Position numbers and translations under genes: made by a program | Source of the DNA: Rhodospirillales bacterium | Lineage (GTDB): Bacteria; Pseudomonadota; Alphaproteobacteria; Acetobacterales; Acetobacteraceae | Direction: 5' to 3' | DNA: 58,728 bases | Assembly (NCBI GenBank): GCA_025351925.1 | Contig: JANXVC010000186.1 | Coordinates: 1-58,728 of the forward strand | The notes under the pieces: generated by a model | Told to the model about the DNA's origin: nothing | The model's database searches: none | What the model saw: only the letters and a program-made list of their open reading frames with translations | Part shown: piece by piece, positions 44,320 to 58,728 of the stretch | Position numbering within the stretch: position 1 is the stretch's first letter | Layout of the letters: every line of letters starts with the position of its first letter

Positions 44320-46188
44320 GTGTTTCCCGTCGAAGGCGGGCTCACACTCGTTCTCGTGCGAGGTGCAGCGGATGCGGCGCTGCTGTCGCAGTTCGGGGCG
44401 CTGCTGGCCCTGACCTGGCTCGCTCCGCCCGTGTTGGCACTGTCGGGCTGGGGCGCGCCGGCGGTGGCCAAGCGGCTGGCGTGGGTGGCCGGGCTGTCCA
44501 TCATCGCGGCCCTGCTGCTGAGTGCAGGTTGGCTTGCGGTGCAGAGCGCGACGCTCGCCGGCACTATGGCCGACGCGCCCCTGGTGTTGCAGGAGACTCT
44601 GTTCGGCCACCTCGTATTGGCACGCCTGGGTCTCCTGTGCTTGACCGGACTTGCCCTGGTTCGGCATCGGCTGTGGCTCGCCATTGCGCTGGCCGGCGCC
44701 GCCGTGGCGAGCCAGGCCGGGCACGCCCATGCCTGGGCCATGTATGAGGGGCCGAGCTGGCTGCTGCTGTCCGGCGCGGTCCACCTGCTGGCGGCAGCGG
44801 CCTGGCTGGGCGGCCTGCTGCCGCTCCTGTTGCTGGTTGCGGCGGCGCCGCCTGAGGTGGCGGCCCTCGCGGCCATGCGCTTCGCACCGCTGGGCACCAT
44901 CAGCGTGCTCCTGCTGGCCGGCACGGCGTTGTTCCAGGCCTACGTCCTGGTCGGAACGCTGCCGGGCCTGGTCGGGACTGGCTACGGCCTGGTCGCGCTG
45001 GCCAAACTCGGCGGGTTCCTGGGGCTGCTGGGCTTTGCCGCACGCAACCGGTTCCGACTGACCCCGGCGCTCGGCGACGGAATGCCCGAAGCGACCAAAC
45101 GTCGATTGACGCACAGCATCGCTGCGGAAACCGTGACGGGCCTGCTGGTCGTCCTTGCCGCGGGTCTCCTGACGAGCCTGCCGCCGGCCATGCACGAGCA
45201 ACCGCTATGGCCTTTCGCATGGCGATTGAGCCTGGATGCAGTGCGGGAGGATGCGTCGCTGCTCCAGGAGGCCACGCTGGCCGCTACCGTCCTTGCGACG
45301 GCGGCGGTTTTGATCGCCGCCGCATTCCTATGCAGGTTGCGCGCCCGCTGGCTCGTCGCGCAGGCCGGCGCCGTCGCTGCCTTTCTCGCCATGCCGCATT
45401 TTGACGGGCTGCTGGCCGAGGCATACCCAACTCAGTATTGGCGATCGCCCACAGGCTTTGCGAGCGCCGCAATCGCGAACGGCAACGCGCTTTACCCCGC
45501 GCACTGCGCCAGCTGCCATGGCGCCAAGGGTCACGGCGACGGCCCGACCGCGAGCGGACTCCCCATACCGCCCGTGGACCTGACGGTCGAGCATCTGTGG
45601 GCGCATGAGGACGGTGAGCTGTTCTGGTGGCTGTCGCACGGCATTGCGGCGCCCGACGGCAGTGTGGCCATGCCGGGCTTTGCGGACGCGCTCACCGAGG
45701 ACCAGCGCTGGGCGCTGATCGACTGGCTCCGGGCCAATAATGCAGGAGCTGCCTTCGCGGCAACTGGCGCATGGCCGCGGCCGGTCCAGGCGCCTAACCT
45801 GGAGGCGTTGTGCCCGGACGGGCGCCTTATGACGCTCGAAGCCTTGCGCGGCCAGGTGGTCCGGATCGTGTTCGGGCCAGCTCGCCCCATGCCCGGCGCG
45901 GTTACGATCCAAGCGACCTCCAGCTCGCCCGTCCAGCCAAGTACGGAAAACTGCACTGCCGGCGAGGACGCGGTGCTGGGTGCCTATGCGGTGTTGACCG
46001 ATGGATCGCCAGACGGATTGGCCGGCGCACAGATCCTCATTGACGGCGGGGGCTGGCTACGCGCCTTGCAGCGGCCCGGTGCCGCGCCGGGCTGGGATGA
46101 TCCCAGCACGCTCGCCGACGCGGTCCGCGACATCGAGGCACACCCGCTCGCCGAGAGCCCGCGCAGTCATGCGGGAATGCGGATGTAG
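44320..46188 (+). CDS. CopD-like copper membrane protein fused to cytochrome c
   Basis: 622 residues, with GTG start after GGGAGGGGAG. Residues about 1-370 are CopD-like with nine or more membrane helices (LVLVRGAADAALLSQFGALL, GHAHAWAMYEGPSWLLLSGA, VHLLAAAAWLGGLLPLLLLV). Residues about 385-480 are a class I cytochrome c: Cys396-Ala-Ser-Cys399-His400, then a Met ligand in SVAMPGFADAL. About 150 further residues form a thioredoxin-like or unassigned domain with two cysteines. CopD moves copper across the inner membrane; the heme suggests coupling to redox. Confidence 0.88.
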   Translation: MFPVEGGLTLVLVRGAADAALLSQFGALLALTWLAPPVLALSGWGAPAVAKRLAWVAGLSIIAALLLSAGWLAVQSATLAGTMADAPLVLQETLFGHLVLARLGLLCLTGLALVRHRLWLAIALAGAAVASQAGHAHAWAMYEGPSWLLLSGAVHLLAAAAWLGGLLPLLLLVAAAPPEVAALAAMRFAPLGTISVLLLAGTALFQAYVLVGTLPGLVGTGYGLVALAKLGGFLGLLGFAARNRFRLTPALGDGMPEATKRRLTHSIAAETVTGLLVVLAAGLLTSLPPAMHEQPLWPFAWRLSLDAVREDASLLQEATLAATVLATAAVLIAAAFLCRLRARWLVAQAGAVAAFLAMPHFDGLLAEAYPTQYWRSPTGFASAAIANGNALYPAHCASCHGAKGHGDGPTASGLPIPPVDLTVEHLWAHEDGELFWWLSHGIAAPDGSVAMPGFADALTEDQRWALIDWLRANNAGAAFAATGAWPRPVQAPNLEALCPDGRLMTLEALRGQVVRIVFGPARPMPGAVTIQATSSSPVQPSTENCTAGEDAVLGAYAVLTDGSPDGLAGAQILIDGGGWLRALQRPGAAPGWDDPSTLADAVRDIEAHPLAESPRSHAGMRM

Positions 46189-52251: not shown

Positions 52252-54072
52252 CTAGGTCACTGCGATATCCAGGTTGCGCGCACTCACCAGCACGCCGTCC
52301 GCATAGCCGCGCAGGCCGAGCCGCCCCTCGCCCGGCAGCGGGACATGAATCTCCTCGCCCGGCGCCACGTCGCGGGACAGCGTGGGCCGGCCGTTCCACA
52401 ACACGTCCAGCCGGTCCGAGTGGCGCAGTCGGATGGTCGCCATGCGGCCTGGGCCCAGCGTCACGTCGAGCGGATAGGGCGTGCGCTGCATCAGCAGCCG
52501 GGCGGCGTGCGCGATGAGGTCGGGATCACCCTCCAGCAGGTCGCGCCGGGTCAGCTCGTGCAGGACATCCGGCACCACGCCGCGCTCCTCCAATTCCAGC
52601 CCGGCGTGCGGGCCGACCCGCAGGCTGCGGCGCAGCGCCACGCGGAGCTCGGCGCCCTGCGGCAGGCCGGGCACCGCATCCGTTTCCGCAAGCGCACTCC
52701 GCAGCACGGCGAACGGCCACACATTTGCGCCGCCCGCGCCGGTGCAGGCGTGCACGCCCAGCACAGGTCCGATCCCGTGGTCCTGAAGCCCAGCGGCGAA
52801 GATGTCGGTCGCGCTGTAGCACAGTGCGCTGGTCAGCAGCACGACCGGACCGTGATAGCGCTGGCCGATGGCGTTGCAGGCCTCGGGCGACGTCATCGGC
52901 AACGCGGCCGAGTACATCGCGCCGGTTTCCAGCGCGTGCTCGACCGAGAGGTACCAGGGCGACAGGTCCGTCACCCGGTATGGATTGGCCGGTCCCTGGC
53001 TGCGGCACAGCGCCAGCGTGGCCGGGGTGGCGCGCAGCTGCATCGGCGCCGGCTCGATCCGGCCGGGGGTCAGCAGCTGCAGGCAGCGCTCGGCCGCCTC
53101 CACCAGGCCGCCGCCATTGTCGCGCACGTCGAGGATCAGGCCGCGCGGCGGCAGCAGCGCGAGCAGCCGGGCGAACTCGGCCACGAAGGCGTCGGCGTCA
53201 TGCGTCACGAAGGTCGGAATGCGCAGATAGCCGACATGGATGCGGCCGATCCGCAGCGCAGCCGCCGTGAACTTGTGCGGCGGTTCGGTCGGCACTGGAG
53301 CCTTGAGCTCGGTAGCACCACCCGTCGTCAGCAGTCCGCGGGCATGGAACAGCCGGCCGCGGCTGCGGCGCAGCGCGTCCGACTGCACGTCGAGGCTCGC
53401 TGCCCGCCGCTCGTCGCGCGCAGTCAGCGTCAGCACCCGCCACACCGCGCGCACCTCCCGCAGCTTTGCGCCTTGGCTCGGGCGGATTTGGATCGCCACC
53501 CAGTCCTCGTCGGGCGGCGGCCGCTTGGCCAGTGGACGCAGTGTCATGGCAGCCAGGGCATGCGCGCGCTGGGCGCAGGCGTTGGCGCCGGCGGTGCGCG
53601 CCGCTGCGCGTTCCAGCGCACGCAGGATCGGCACCCCGCTCCAGGCAACCACCTCCTCGCCCGGCGCCGCGTCCAGGAATCCCGCCGACACCCGCGTCAC
53701 GATGACCCGCTGCCGCCCGGCCACGCAGTACTCGCCCAATTGCAGCGGCAGAAACGCCACCGCCTGCGCCAAGGCGGACGGCAGCAGATAGTTGGTATGC
53801 AGGTCCAGCAGCGCGTCGAACACCTCGGTCAACGCCGCATGGAACCCGGCGGCGCTGTCCAGCATCGGCGAGCGGCGGCGCAGTGCGCGCAGCTGGGCCA
53901 GCGGGTCCACGCCGTGGCTCGCCTGTTTCTGCGGCAGGTGCACGTAGTAGTCGGCCAGCAGCCGGATGGCGGCATCGACGAGGGTCTGCCGCTCGGCCGG
54001 CGAGAGAGTGGGGATCGTAGCGCGGAAGCGGGCCAGCGTCTCGGCGCGGTGCCAGCGCCAGGTGGTCGGCAA
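52252..54072 (-). CDS. S41-type (tail-specific protease-like) peptidase
   Basis: 606 residues. The catalytic domain shows IGYLRIPTF-like HVGYLRIPTFVTHDADAFVA, then LPPRGLILDVRDNGGGLVEA, VVLLTSALCYSATDIFAAGL with the presumed nucleophilic Ser, and GVHACTGAGGANVW. These are S41 hallmarks, as in CtpA-like proteases. There is no signal peptide (start MPTTWRWHRAETLARF) and no clear PDZ domain, so it may act in the cytosol. It diverges from the cyclase gene with about 120 bases between starts, which hold both promoters. Confidence 0.82.
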   Translation of the reverse strand: MPTTWRWHRAETLARFRATIPTLSPAERQTLVDAAIRLLADYYVHLPQKQASHGVDPLAQLRALRRRSPMLDSAAGFHAALTEVFDALLDLHTNYLLPSALAQAVAFLPLQLGEYCVAGRQRVIVTRVSAGFLDAAPGEEVVAWSGVPILRALERAAARTAGANACAQRAHALAAMTLRPLAKRPPPDEDWVAIQIRPSQGAKLREVRAVWRVLTLTARDERRAASLDVQSDALRRSRGRLFHARGLLTTGGATELKAPVPTEPPHKFTAAALRIGRIHVGYLRIPTFVTHDADAFVAEFARLLALLPPRGLILDVRDNGGGLVEAAERCLQLLTPGRIEPAPMQLRATPATLALCRSQGPANPYRVTDLSPWYLSVEHALETGAMYSAALPMTSPEACNAIGQRYHGPVVLLTSALCYSATDIFAAGLQDHGIGPVLGVHACTGAGGANVWPFAVLRSALAETDAVPGLPQGAELRVALRRSLRVGPHAGLELEERGVVPDVLHELTRRDLLEGDPDLIAHAARLLMQRTPYPLDVTLGPGRMATIRLRHSDRLDVLWNGRPTLSRDVAPGEEIHVPLPGEGRLGLRGYADGVLVSARNLDIAVT

Positions 54073-54194
54073 CGGGGCTGCGGAGTCGAAACCGGACAGG
54101 ATGCGCCTCCTGGTTCACCTATGGCGAGTTCTCTTCTATTCTGCCGGCGCTGCCAATTGCGGTTGGCGGCTGAACCCAGATCACGGGACGCATT

Positions 54195-57100
54195 GTGCGC
54201 TGTTCGCGTTGCGATATCGAGAACCCTGAGGATGCCCGCTTCTGCGACGGCTGCGGCGGCTCCCTGTCGCGCGCCTGCCCAGCCTGCCAAGCCGTGGCCC
54301 GCGCTCACGCCCGGTTCTGCAGCCAGTGCGGCACCGCGCTTGAGATGCCTGCCGAGCCTGCTGCGCCATCGATGGTCAGCCAGCAATCACCAAGTATCGG
54401 CCAACGCAAGCACGTCACCATCCTGTTCGCCGACGTCCGCGGCTCCACCGAGCTGGTCCGCGCGCTCGACCCCGAGGAGGCGCTTGCCCGCATTGACCCG
54501 GTCGTGCAGGGCGCGGTCGCCGCCGTCACCCGCTTTGGCGGCATCGTCAACGAGGTGCAGGGCGACGGGCTGATGGCGCTGTTCGGCGCGCCGCTCGCCG
54601 CCGAGGACCACCCAGTCTGCGCCTGCCTCGCAGCCCGCGCGATTCTGCAAGGACTGCCGCCGGGCATCGAGATGCGGGTCGGCGTGCACTCGGGCGAGGT
54701 CGTGATCCGCCCCTCCGGCCGGGACGCGTCCGACTACGCCGCCATCGGACCCGCCGTCTATTTCACCAAGCGGCTCGAACAGGCCGCCGAACCCGGCACC
54801 GCGCGCCTCAGCGCCGACACCGCCCGCCTGACCCGCGGCTACACCGACCTGCGGCCACTGGGCCTGGTCCAGGCCAAGGGCTGGGACGAGCCGGTCGAGA
54901 TGTTCGAGCTGCTGCACGCCACCGACCGGCCGAGCTGGGAGGTGCGCTCCGCCGGCAGCCTGAGCTGCTTCGTCGGGCGCGAGGCGGAGCTCGCCGCGCT
55001 CTCGTCGGCGCTGATGCGTGCGACGCTTGGGACGATGCAGGCGGTGACGCTGGTCGCCGACGCCGGAGTGGGCAAGTCCCGCCTGGCGCACGAGTTCCTG
55101 CACGGCCCGGCGGCCCGCGGCATCCGCGTGGTGCGCGCCGCCGCCGCCGCCCATGCCGGCAACGCCCCGTTCTACGTCGCGGCCGAGCTGCTGCGGTCCT
55201 GGATCGGCGCCGTGGCGGGCGACGACCGGGCGGCGCTGGCCCGCCGCCTGGACCAGGCCATCGCCGTCAACCTAACCCAGGGCGTGACGCCGGACGCGGC
55301 GGCGCTGCACTCCCTGCTGAACCTGTCGCTGCTGGAGTTGCCGGCGCCGGAACAGGCCGCCTGGACCTCGCTGGATCCCGCCCGCCGCCGCCAGCGCCTG
55401 ATCGACGTAACCCGCGGCGTCCTGCTGCGGGAGGCAGCGCAAAATCCGTTGATCGTGCTGGTCGAGGACCTGCACTGGGTTGATGAGGCGAGCCGCGAGC
55501 TGCTCGCGGCGCTAGTCGCCGGCGCCGGCGCGACCCGCCTGCTGCTATTCGCCACCACCCGCCCAGGCGGCCAGCCGGAATGGGCCGCCCGCAGCAACAG
55601 CGTGGTGCTTCGGCTGGAGCCGCTGGACCGCGCCCAGTCCGAGACGCTGCTGCAGCGTCTGGTCGGCGACGCGCCGGAGCTCGCCGTGCTCCGGGCCCGC
55701 ATCATCGCCCAGGCGGAGGGCACGCCGCTGTTCCTGGAGGAGATGGCCCGGTCGCTCACCGAGAGCGGCGCGCTGGTCCACGCGCCCGCCCAGGTCCACC
55801 TGACCGAGCGGGCGGAGGGCATCAGCATCCCGGCCTCGGTCCAGGGCATCGTCGCCTCCCGCCTGGACCGGCTGCCGGCCACGCAGCGCCGGCTCTTGCA
55901 GGTCGCGTCGGTGCTGGGCAAGGACGTTCGCACCGACGTGCTGCGCGTGCTCTGCCATGTGCCGCCTGCGCAGATGGACGCGGACCTCACGGCGCTGCAG
56001 GCGGCCGAGTTCCTGTATGAGACGAGCCTGGGCAGCCGCGAGGTCTATAGCTTCAAGCACGCCGTCACCCAGTCTGTCGCCTACGACACCCTGCTGCGCG
56101 CCGAGCGCCGCGCCCTGCACGCCGAGACGCTGTCCGCGCTGGAGCAAATGACCGGGGACCGCCTGGGCGAGATGCTCGAGCGCCTGTCGGACCACGCCGC
56201 CGCCGGCGAGGTCTGGGCGGCTGCGCACCGCTACAGCCTGGGCGCCGGCCGCCGGGCCAATGAACGCTTCGCCTGGCTGGAGGCGATCGGCTATTTCGAC
56301 CGCGCCCTGGACGCGATCAACCATTTCGAGGACGCGCACGAGGCGGCGCTAGCCGGCATCGAGGTCCGGCTGGGTCTCCGCACGGCGTTGGGCGCCACCG
56401 GCAATTTGGACCGCTGCCTGACGGTGATGGAGGACGCGCGGCGGCTGGCGGCGTGGACCGGCAACACGATCCAGGTCGCGCAGATCGACGGCTATGCCTG
56501 CATGCTGCTGACCAGCCTCGGCTCGCTGGACCGGGCGGTGGCGGCGGGCCGGCGCGGCGCCGTGGCCGCAGCCGGGCACCCGCCCTCGACGCTGAACCTC
56601 GCCTTCGGGCTGGGGCAGGCCTACTGGTTCCAGGGCCGCTTCGGCGACGCGGCCAGAACGCTGTCCAGCAGCTTGCCCAGCGTCCGCGGCGCGCTGCGTC
56701 TGGCCGCGACCGGGACCATCGGCACCGTGTCGGTGCTGACTTTGGTGGCATTGTCCAAGACCCACGCCATGATAGGCGAGTTCGACCTCGCACTGACGCT
56801 CGCAGCGGAGGCGCAGGCCATCGCCGCCGAGACGCAACGCCCCTATGACGTCGCCTATGCCAGCGTGGCGCCGGGCTTTGCCCATATGATGCAGGGCGCG
56901 CACGACGACGCGGTCGCCGTCATGGAGGAGGGGCTGCAGGTCGCGCGCCGCGCCGGCATCCTGCTGCTGCTGCCGTCGATCGCGCGCTATCTCGGCCGGG
57001 CGCACGCCGCGGCGGGCTCGGCGGACAAGGCGCATGCCCTTCTGCACGAGGCGCTGGCGCTGACCCGGCGTCAGCGGCTGACCGGGCTGACGGCATGGTG

Positions 57101-57521
57101 CAGCGCTGCTTTGGGCCACGCCCACATGGGCGGCGACGCTGCCCTGGCCGAGGCCGCACTGCAGGAGGCGCTGGCGATGGCGGCCGAGCATGGCTACGCT
57201 CCCGTGCAGGCGCAGACGCTGCGTGCACTGGGCGAGTTGCGCCTGCGCGCCGGCGACGCCGTGGCGGCCGAGGCCAGCCTGCGCCAGGCAGCGGCCCTGG
57301 CCGAGGCAATGGGCATGCGTCCCGACCTGGCGGAGACGCGCCGCCTGCTGGCCGACGCGCTCCGCGCCTTAGGCCGGCTCGCGGAGGCGTGTGCAGAAGA
57401 CGCGGCGGCAACGGCGATCGCCCTTGCACTGCGTCCGCTTGAGGATAAAGGTCAGTACGGTAACAGTCGGGACGGTAGCGGTCCGGCGCTGTTGCCCAAT
57501 CGAACGGAGCACCCGGCGTGA
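54195..57521 (+). CDS. zinc-ribbon / class III nucleotide cyclase / NTPase / TPR signalling protein
   Basis: 1108 residues in order: double zinc ribbon (Cys3/6/17/20 and Cys28/31/42/45, twice CxxC-x10-CxxC), then a class III cyclase domain at about 70-240 (LFADVRGSTELV with Asp80, VNEVQGDGLMALFG with Asp124, then GPAVYFTKRLEQAA). Next is an AAA-like NTPase with Walker A ADAGVGKSRL (Lys294) and Walker B LVEDLHWVDEAS (about 423), and TPR-like repeats from about 680 to 1080. The usual cyclase Asn before the Arg appears to be missing. GTG start at 54195. Its stop overlaps the next start by 4 bases. Confidence 0.9.
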   Translation: MRCSRCDIENPEDARFCDGCGGSLSRACPACQAVARAHARFCSQCGTALEMPAEPAAPSMVSQQSPSIGQRKHVTILFADVRGSTELVRALDPEEALARIDPVVQGAVAAVTRFGGIVNEVQGDGLMALFGAPLAAEDHPVCACLAARAILQGLPPGIEMRVGVHSGEVVIRPSGRDASDYAAIGPAVYFTKRLEQAAEPGTARLSADTARLTRGYTDLRPLGLVQAKGWDEPVEMFELLHATDRPSWEVRSAGSLSCFVGREAELAALSSALMRATLGTMQAVTLVADAGVGKSRLAHEFLHGPAARGIRVVRAAAAAHAGNAPFYVAAELLRSWIGAVAGDDRAALARRLDQAIAVNLTQGVTPDAAALHSLLNLSLLELPAPEQAAWTSLDPARRRQRLIDVTRGVLLREAAQNPLIVLVEDLHWVDEASRELLAALVAGAGATRLLLFATTRPGGQPEWAARSNSVVLRLEPLDRAQSETLLQRLVGDAPELAVLRARIIAQAEGTPLFLEEMARSLTESGALVHAPAQVHLTERAEGISIPASVQGIVASRLDRLPATQRRLLQVASVLGKDVRTDVLRVLCHVPPAQMDADLTALQAAEFLYETSLGSREVYSFKHAVTQSVAYDTLLRAERRALHAETLSALEQMTGDRLGEMLERLSDHAAAGEVWAAAHRYSLGAGRRANERFAWLEAIGYFDRALDAINHFEDAHEAALAGIEVRLGLRTALGATGNLDRCLTVMEDARRLAAWTGNTIQVAQIDGYACMLLTSLGSLDRAVAAGRRGAVAAAGHPPSTLNLAFGLGQAYWFQGRFGDAARTLSSSLPSVRGALRLAATGTIGTVSVLTLVALSKTHAMIGEFDLALTLAAEAQAIAAETQRPYDVAYASVAPGFAHMMQGAHDDAVAVMEEGLQVARRAGILLLLPSIARYLGRAHAAAGSADKAHALLHEALALTRRQRLTGLTAWCSAALGHAHMGGDAALAEAALQEALAMAAEHGYAPVQAQTLRALGELRLRAGDAVAAEASLRQAAALAEAMGMRPDLAETRRLLADALRALGRLAEACAEDAAATAIALALRPLEDKGQYGNSRDGSGPALLPNRTEHPA

Positions 57522-57778
57522 CCGACAAGCAAAACGTCCCTCGCCCCGCGACCCTAAAGGACCTGCAGGACATCCTGGCCCACGCCGCGAACCATCCGGC
57601 TGAGCGCCAGAGGCTGGCCGTCGCGCCAGAGGATGCGTTGCAGCGGGCCGGCCTGATTGCCACGCCGGACGCCGTTGATTTCCTCCGCAGCCTCGGCAAT
57701 GCGAAGTTCGATGAGGCCGCCCAGGGTCAGACATCAGGAACGATCGACCCGCTTAAGGGCGGAGCGGGCGAGATGTGA
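57518..57778 (+). CDS. candidate RiPP precursor peptide (NHLP/Nif11-like leader)
   Basis: 86 residues, GTG start with GGAG 8 bases upstream and a 4-base overlap with the cyclase stop. LKDLQDILAHAANHPAERQR, then LAVAPEDALQRAGLIATPDA and VDFLRSLG, has the helical NHLP/Nif11-clan leader pattern. The C-terminal 25 residues (NAKFDEAAQGQTSGTIDPLK, then GGAGEM) are disordered-looking, have no Cys, and contain three Thr/Ser. A C-methyltransferase radical SAM gene follows in 10 bases. Assignment is by leader pattern and context; no known core is recognised. Confidence 0.55.
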   Translation: MTDKQNVPRPATLKDLQDILAHAANHPAERQRLAVAPEDALQRAGLIATPDAVDFLRSLGNAKFDEAAQGQTSGTIDPLKGGAGEM

Positions 57779-57788
57779 CGCCCGCCCG

Positions 57789-58728
57789 ATGCATCGGCAG
57801 GCCGACGCGGGCCGGGTGATATTGGTGTCGATGCCGTTTTCGTCGCCGCACTACCCGAGCCTTGCACTCGGCCTGTTGAAGCCGTTGGCCGAGCAGGCGG
57901 GCGCCGCGTGCGACGTGCGTTATTTCTCGCTGGATTACCTGGAATGGTTGGGCGCCGACGCCTACGCGCTCCTGACCGAGCCGTCGATCTACATGGCGCA
58001 GGCCGGCGAGTGGGTGTTTGCCGCCGCGGCCGACTCGCGGATCGACCCGGACGGCGTCGGGTTCCTCACCGATGTGCTGCTTCGGTACCATCCCGAAGCC
58101 TACCGTCCGCCTTTGCTTATGGCCTTGCTCTCGGCGCGGCAGGACGTTGCCGCCTTCATCGAGCGGTGCTTCGAGAGCGTCGCTTGGGAACGCTACGCCC
58201 TGGTCGGCCTCACCACGTCGTTCCAACAGACCATGGCGTCGCTCGCCCTCGCACGGCGGATCAAGGCCCACCATCCCAGCGTTGCGATCGTGTTGGGCGG
58301 CGCCAACTGCCAGGACGCGATGGGGCTGGAGCTGCTGGCCCAGTATGACTGCATCGACGCGGTCTGCCTGGGCGAGGGCGAGCACGCCTTGCGCGAAATT
58401 ATACGCCACATCCAGGCGGATACCCCGCTGCATGGCATCCCGGGCGTCGCAGTCCGCGGCCAGCCCGCCCCGGCGCCGGCCGCCCGCACCGATGTCGAGG
58501 CGCTGCCGTATCCCGACTTCGATGCGTTCTTCGCCCAGCACGCAGCGACCCCGGCCGCCGCGGCCTACCCACCCGCCGTGGTGTTCGAAACCGCGCGCGG
58601 CTGCTGGTGGGGCGCCAAGCACCACTGCACCTTCTGCGGCCTGAATGGCACCAGCATGGCGTTCCGGTCGAAGTCACAGGACCGGGCCTATGACGAGTTG
58701 ACCTATCTGGTTGCCCGGCACGAATGCG
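57789..58728 (+). CDS. B12-binding radical SAM RiPP C-methyltransferase, C-terminus outside window
   Basis: About 313 codons before the right edge. The N-terminal cobalamin-binding-like part has GLTTSFQQTMASLALARRIK, VAIVLGGANCQDAMGLELL and VCLGEGEHALREII. The radical SAM site is FETARGCWWGAKHHCTFCGL, Cys272-x7-Cys280-x2-Cys283, then NGTSMAFRSKS. The CX7CX2C spacing and GLNGTSM are typical of RiPP maturation radical SAM C-methyltransferases (rSAM_ocin_1/PoyC-like), which methylate unactivated carbons in peptides. It lies 10 bases after the precursor-like gene. ATG 57789. Confidence 0.9.
   Translation, partial: MHRQADAGRVILVSMPFSSPHYPSLALGLLKPLAEQAGAACDVRYFSLDYLEWLGADAYALLTEPSIYMAQAGEWVFAAAADSRIDPDGVGFLTDVLLRYHPEAYRPPLLMALLSARQDVAAFIERCFESVAWERYALVGLTTSFQQTMASLALARRIKAHHPSVAIVLGGANCQDAMGLELLAQYDCIDAVCLGEGEHALREIIRHIQADTPLHGIPGVAVRGQPAPAPAARTDVEALPYPDFDAFFAQHAATPAAAAYPPAVVFETARGCWWGAKHHCTFCGLNGTSMAFRSKSQDRAYDELTYLVARHEC

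Follow-up and report, generated by a model that had tools for sequence, protein, structure and literature searches.

The right-hand end of the DNA stretch studied here raises the question of why a large cyclase-like protein should be encoded together with a small precursor-like protein and a B12-dependent radical SAM (rSAM) enzyme. The stretch, hereafter the window, is one entire contig (G000:C160, 58728 bp) of an alphaproteobacterial assembly. The initial annotation had proposed three ORFs with their coordinates and order, a GTGA overlap, a 10-base gap, and a Cx7Cx2C motif, all of which we re-derived from the sequence. The features concerned are as follows:

52252..54072, minus strand: S41 (CPAF-like) serine peptidase without evident signal sequence (PF03572; CPAF model best)
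54073..54194, no strand: intergenic region of 122 bp between the divergent S41 and cyclase genes (position only)
54195..57521, plus strand: protein of 1108 aa with double zinc ribbon, class III cyclase homology domain, AAA_16/STAND NTPase and TPR superhelix (Pfam, AlphaFold model, adjacent homologue in 12 related loci)
57518..57778, plus strand: predicted NHLP-clan (Os1348-like) precursor protein of 86 aa (fold match, profile of relatives, tail motif)
57789..58728, plus strand: B12-radical SAM C-methyltransferase of RiPPs, incomplete at the contig end (TIGR03975, PF02310, Cx7Cx2C)

The cyclase ORF runs from a GTG at 54195 to a TGA at 57519-57521, and an in-frame stop at 54171 makes 54195 its earliest possible start. 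The 86-aa ORF begins with the GTG at 57518, so that the two genes share the four bases GTGA, and ends with a stop at 57776-57778; its G+C by codon position (0.74/0.47/0.79) is similar to that of the adjoining genes and indicates that it is coding. The ATG of the rSAM gene follows at 57789, 10 bases past the end of the small ORF, and the gene is incomplete because the window ends where the contig ends; no match to the missing C-terminal half was found in the rest of the assembly. The 122-bp intergenic region likely carries the promoters of both the S41 and the cyclase genes. Further to the left, positions 44320-46188 hold a single ORF with a CopD copper-resistance domain and cytochrome c (cbb3-type subunit III) domains.

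Even with its N-terminal half alone present, the rSAM protein passes the TIGR03975 (rSAM_ocin_1) model (304.6 bits versus a cut-off of 281.85), which places it in a family of RiPP C-methyltransferases and bears out the earlier reading of the downstream gene as a peptide-modifying enzyme. It has the cluster motif GCWWGAKHHCTFC (Cx7Cx2C) and a B12-binding domain (PF02310), and is 58-60% identical to the full-length protein of locus L014. Among related rSAM_ocin_1 loci on rhizobial plasmids, Nif11 precursors and epimerases occur, one locus also has NHLP exporters, and no neighbouring cyclase is annotated. A tandem pair of rSAM_ocin_1 genes, also without a cyclase, was observed in L193 (G1086:C8:275963-279504). 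In rSAM_ocin_1 loci of Paracoccus and Sedimentitalea (L040:9571-9963 and L076:7255-7728), the small ORF upstream contains repeated Cys pairs (...CVRPCVISQCTVISQCIRPC...) and a Gly-rich tail, and is probably another type of precursor.

The small gene had been described as NHLP/Nif11-like. A fold match to Os1348 and the annotation of a relative support a precursor-like protein of the NHLP clan, whereas the window protein itself scores below the cut-off of the Os1348-family NHLP clan model NF038399 (21.9 bits versus 40), which its relative in L023 passes (40.2 bits). The AlphaFold model of the window protein, of modest confidence (pLDDT 69), consists of helices from residues 13 to 72 followed by a disordered tail from about residue 72. 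Its top three PDB matches with Foldseek were chains of Os1348 (6lk7; probability 0.97-0.98), with E-values (0.4-0.55) that are weak for a short protein whose model is only moderately confident, and lower-scoring matches included nitrile hydratase alpha subunits and a proteusin precursor. An Os1348-like fold is thus predicted for the window precursor, with a leader at approximately residues 10-72 and a tail at residues 73-86 (...GTIDPLKGGAGEM). A profile built from the small proteins convincingly matched a single protein per genome, the one at the cassette; this held also for G013, which lay outside the profile, and no further convincing copies were found. The same profile also matched proteins in actinobacterial loci that we recognized by eye from their sequences as nitrile-hydratase-alpha-like. 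Such genes were seen in the actinobacterial rSAM_ocin_1 loci L064 (15658-16272), L070 (15688-16302), and L048 (14585-15199), where adjoining ORFs on the opposite strand are weakly similar to the window cyclase protein.

The tails of the precursors offer two candidate cores. In all eight Rhodobacterales/Rhizobiales precursors the tail DGVIRPRC is invariant, even though their leaders are mostly only 36-68% identical (the exceptions being the close pairs L017/L018 and L025/L026), which would favour a conserved partner over a diversifying toxin. In the group of the window, TIDPLKGGAGEM resembles THDPIKLAGDM of G013 and HPDPSLGMAEC of L014, and the candidate core can be written as DP[LI]K..AG[ED]M; the tails of L015 and L016 differ. 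In polytheonamide and bottromycin, Cx7Cx2C B12-rSAM enzymes place methyl groups on Cbeta, PoyC on that of a valine (PMC5682303). Plausible methylation targets are therefore V-I of DGVIRPRC and, for the window tail, T-I or L.

Relatives of the locus were retrieved through the incomplete window rSAM alone, by a scan of a genome collection that yielded 79 loci and by a search of related genomes that added more. At 12 loci besides the window, a cyclase homologue adjoins the precursor-rSAM pair. These loci belong to Acetobacteraceae/Roseomonadaceae-type bacteria, Rhizobiaceae, and Roseobacteraceae. Among the window's relatives (L014, L015, L016, and G013), the three genes are co-directional in the order cyclase, precursor, rSAM, while in Rhodobacterales/Rhizobiales (L017, L018, L019, L021, L023, L025, L026, and L028) the cyclase gene is divergent from the other two. 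Overlap between cyclase and precursor genes is specific to the window; judging from coordinates, the gap is about 17 to 150 bp in its co-directional relatives. The same trio is carried by a plasmid of Ruegeria sp. B32, where PGAP names the products adenylate/guanylate cyclase domain-containing protein, Os1348 family NHLP clan protein, and RiPP maturation radical SAM C-methyltransferase. Wider sampling of Rhodobacterales revealed no additional cassette.

When neighbouring ORFs were clustered, cyclase and rSAM alone recurred in 12 of 12 loci; the small precursor is not retained by the length and identity filters used there, and its recurrence was checked by profile. These three genes are the only ones common to the 12 relatives, while their flanks vary and their arrangement flips. 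A homologue of the S41 peptidase, with invariant His92 and Ser420, occupies the same divergent position in L014, L015, and L016, and is absent from G013 and from the Rhodobacterales/Rhizobiales loci; it is possibly a leader peptidase and an optional member of the cassette. Neither an epimerase nor an NHLP exporter is conserved in the 12 relatives, and no other conserved exporter was found among them. As nothing beyond the three genes is conserved in the relatives, further export or maturation genes are not expected to the right of the window's contig end, where the visible sequence stops.

Phylogenies of both large proteins pointed to a shared history. In the rSAM tree (86 rows), the window and the 12 linked loci make up 13 of the 15 members of one supported clade. 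The other two, both without a cyclase, are L022 (Thiobacillus), which has a YydG-like epimerase and a C11-type peptidase gene, and the long-branched L089. In the cyclase tree, the linked proteins account for 13 of the 19 rows of a supported group, where they form two subclades that match those of the rSAMs, and a branch of eight Rhodobacterales/Rhizobiales members consists of linked cyclases throughout. The best genome-wide match to the window cyclase was the rSAM-adjacent one in every searched genome but G219. Pairwise distances of rSAMs and cyclases were strongly correlated (r = 0.97), a value that also carries ordinary shared ancestry. With a few such cyclases in a genome of several thousand genes, we put the probability of chance adjacency per locus at roughly a fraction of a percent. 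Judged from these comparisons, the three-gene cassette is a real, conserved linkage. The initial annotation had suggested looking for the trio in related genomes, where it does recur, and the opposite pattern, in which the small gene would always accompany the cyclase gene and never an rSAM gene, or the downstream gene would not be peptide-modifying, is not what the recurring loci show. A close relative of the window cyclase in G007 (L118/L119), split across two contig ends, adjoins neither precursor nor rSAM, and the small-protein profile found no precursor in that genome, which suggests that the large protein is able to exist without the peptide.

Pfam assigned the domains DZR, Guanylate_cyc, AAA_16, and TPR_12 to the 1108-aa protein. 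Its AlphaFold model (pLDDT 82) was closest in the PDB to the STAND-TPR protein 6mfv (E-value 1.4e-13, with a global TM of only 0.27-0.40), followed by the class III cyclases CyaC, CyaB, Cya2, and Rv1900c. With Walker A and B motifs kept, a repeat sensor domain, and a STAND fold, it has the features that define STAND NTPases, and we refer to it as the switch protein. An active class III cyclase is expected to have two metal-binding Asp, a purine-site Lys (Glu for GTP), and a transition-state Asn and Arg. The window domain departs from this canonical set: it keeps both Asp and the Arg, has Glu at the purine site, like the guanylyl cyclase Cya2, and Tyr in place of the Asn. The purine-selecting Lys is missing from all linked cyclases, with Arg, His, or Leu in those other than the window; at the Asn position, the window's group and some others have Tyr or His, and at the Arg position the linked Roseobacteraceae cyclases have Lys or Thr. 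At least one canonical catalytic residue is therefore replaced in every linked cyclase, which puts cyclic-nucleotide production in question, and on these residues canonical cyclase activity of the switch protein is doubtful. There are active class III cyclases in which such residues are unusual. For the large cyclase-ATPase-TPR family, we know of no established signals. A second cyclase-AAA-TPR paralogue of the same genome (G000:C172:6367-9384; L112, L120) adjoins a phosphatase-like gene.

What, then, might the cassette do? The reading that we favour, with modest confidence, is a compact RiPP-type cassette in which an NHLP/Os1348-clan precursor is accompanied by a B12-rSAM predicted to C-methylate its tail and by a dedicated STAND-type switch protein. 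The families, gene order, conserved linkage, and parallel divergence are seen in the sequences; beyond these, we infer a mechanism in which the rSAM would bind the helical leader of the precursor and methylate its flexible C-terminal tail. In the Acetobacteraceae-type loci, release of this tail may fall to the S41 peptidase. Through its TPR superhelix, the switch protein would bind the precursor or the modified peptide inside the cell, and NTP-driven assembly would then alter the state of the cyclase-like domain. If binding is intracellular, an exported bacteriocin would be a less likely product than a signal or ligand that acts inside the cell or at short range. Recurrence in three alphaproteobacterial groups likewise points towards a small peptide-signalling cassette and away from a classical antibiotic cluster, with a direction of signalling that we infer. 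Counting against this signalling cassette are the G007 cyclase without precursor or rSAM beside it, the rSAMs of L022 and L089 without a cyclase, the score of the window precursor below its family cut-off, and a cyclase domain without canonical residues. More speculatively, and in our view improbable in this full form, the methylated invariant-core peptide would be kept in the cell as the ligand of the STAND receptor in a hormone-like system, with the degenerate cyclase domain making an unusual nucleotide signal or giving a non-catalytic output.

It is unlikely, in our assessment, that the STAND-cyclase instead acts upstream, sensing the state of the cell and controlling expression of the precursor-rSAM pair through a cyclic nucleotide or direct interaction, with the peptide as an ordinary effector. 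Operon overlap in the window and the divergent arrangement in Rhodobacterales would suit such a regulator, and its zinc ribbon could contact nucleic acid, but ribbon aside Pfam recognized no DNA-binding domain, and all linked cyclases lack the purine-site Lys and have a transition-state residue replaced. In L014 the rSAM gene is immediately followed by a Crp/Fnr-type gene, which would also fit but is not conserved: L015 has a more distant one, and we rejected such a gene as a shared partner since it is next to the rSAM only in L014. Less probable still, the large protein would help in maturation by serving precursor and rSAM as a docking scaffold or as a chaperone driven by ATP. TPR proteins bind peptides, and tight linkage, parallel divergence, and the lack of any other conserved maturation gene agree with a scaffold; however, no such gene lies near the related rSAM_ocin_1 systems whose precursors are of Nif11 or other types, and a scaffold needs no cyclase domain. 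The scattered distribution of related rSAM genes, present in about 1-2% of the genomes sampled, the copy on the Ruegeria plasmid, and the differing flanks would be compatible with genes that merely co-travel on mobile islands without functional interaction, yet we find this very unlikely given that these three alone stay together while flanks change and relative orientation flips, and that the link is kept in two diverged lineages. A defence system like Pycsar or Avs, in which the cyclase would generate the alarm signal, is the least credible reading, since against the weak PycC matches, a low-scoring Avs3 match of the switch-protein model, and the patchy distribution stand the generic nature of the PycC matches (reflecting only the shared class III cyclase fold), the lack of a conserved effector gene nearby in the 12 relatives, and an rSAM without a PADLOC match.

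In the favoured signalling cassette, a molecular-switch protein and a peptide C-methyltransferase are brought together in a unit of three genes without a conserved exporter. Its two candidate cores are well delimited: DGVIRPRC for Rhodobacterales/Rhizobiales and DP[LI]K..AG[ED]M for the window's group. Should the peptide be the ligand, this would give a function to part of the cyclase-ATPase-TPR family and a signalling role to a B12-rSAM-modified peptide. A literature search joining NHLP, radical SAM, and adenylate cyclase found no description of this combination, so the union of STAND-cyclase, NHLP-clan precursor, and B12-rSAM appears undescribed in the papers searched, although its individual parts are recognizable.

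Among known systems, the TOMM kinase/cyclase fusion (TIGR03903) is likewise a cyclase-ATPase-TPR protein encoded in a RiPP locus next to a precursor of the NHLP type, and a large Ser/Thr kinase accompanies NHLP-Burk precursors (Haft 2010, PMC2887384). The window protein aligns to positions 268-1253 of the 1267 of this profile, but has a zinc ribbon in place of the kinase, and the modifying enzyme of its cassette is a B12-rSAM instead of a cyclodehydratase. We rejected it as a TIGR03903 member (253.7 versus 705.75 bits, no kinase); many unlinked cyclases score higher, and it therefore represents another branch. After rSAM_ocin_1 in G219 (L124:9200-15129) come an ORF of 58 aa and a cyclase-AAA-TPR gene that has a SAM domain and belongs to the TIGR03903-like branch. 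This locus was set apart from the cassette, as its cyclase comes from a different branch and no Os1348-like precursor was seen, and is possibly an independent rSAM-cyclase pairing. Cyclase-ATPase-TPR proteins thus appear to have joined RiPP loci at least twice, perhaps three times counting G219.

Proteusins such as polytheonamide (PoyB/PoyC) share with the cassette an NHLP-clan precursor and a Cx7Cx2C B12-rSAM C-methyltransferase. On the other hand, the combination of NHLP leader, epimerase, and NHLP exporter by which proteusin clusters are defined is not that of the cassette, in which no epimerase, dehydratase, C11/C39 peptidase, or NHLP exporter is conserved, the tail is short and in one lineage invariant, and a STAND-cyclase is dedicated to the pair. 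Os1348 of Pseudomonas sp. Os17 (PMC7726476; PDB 6lk7) is likewise a small protein of 85-86 aa with the fold predicted for the precursor; its neighbours Os1349-1351 are an acetyltransferase, a putative peptidase, and a SagB-type dehydrogenase, with efflux genes too and no rSAM or cyclase named (PMC7726476). Finally, the domain architecture of the switch protein is that of the class III cyclase-AAA_16-TPR regulators common in alphaproteobacteria, from which the linked cyclases are set apart by forming two subclades tied to the precursor-rSAM pair.
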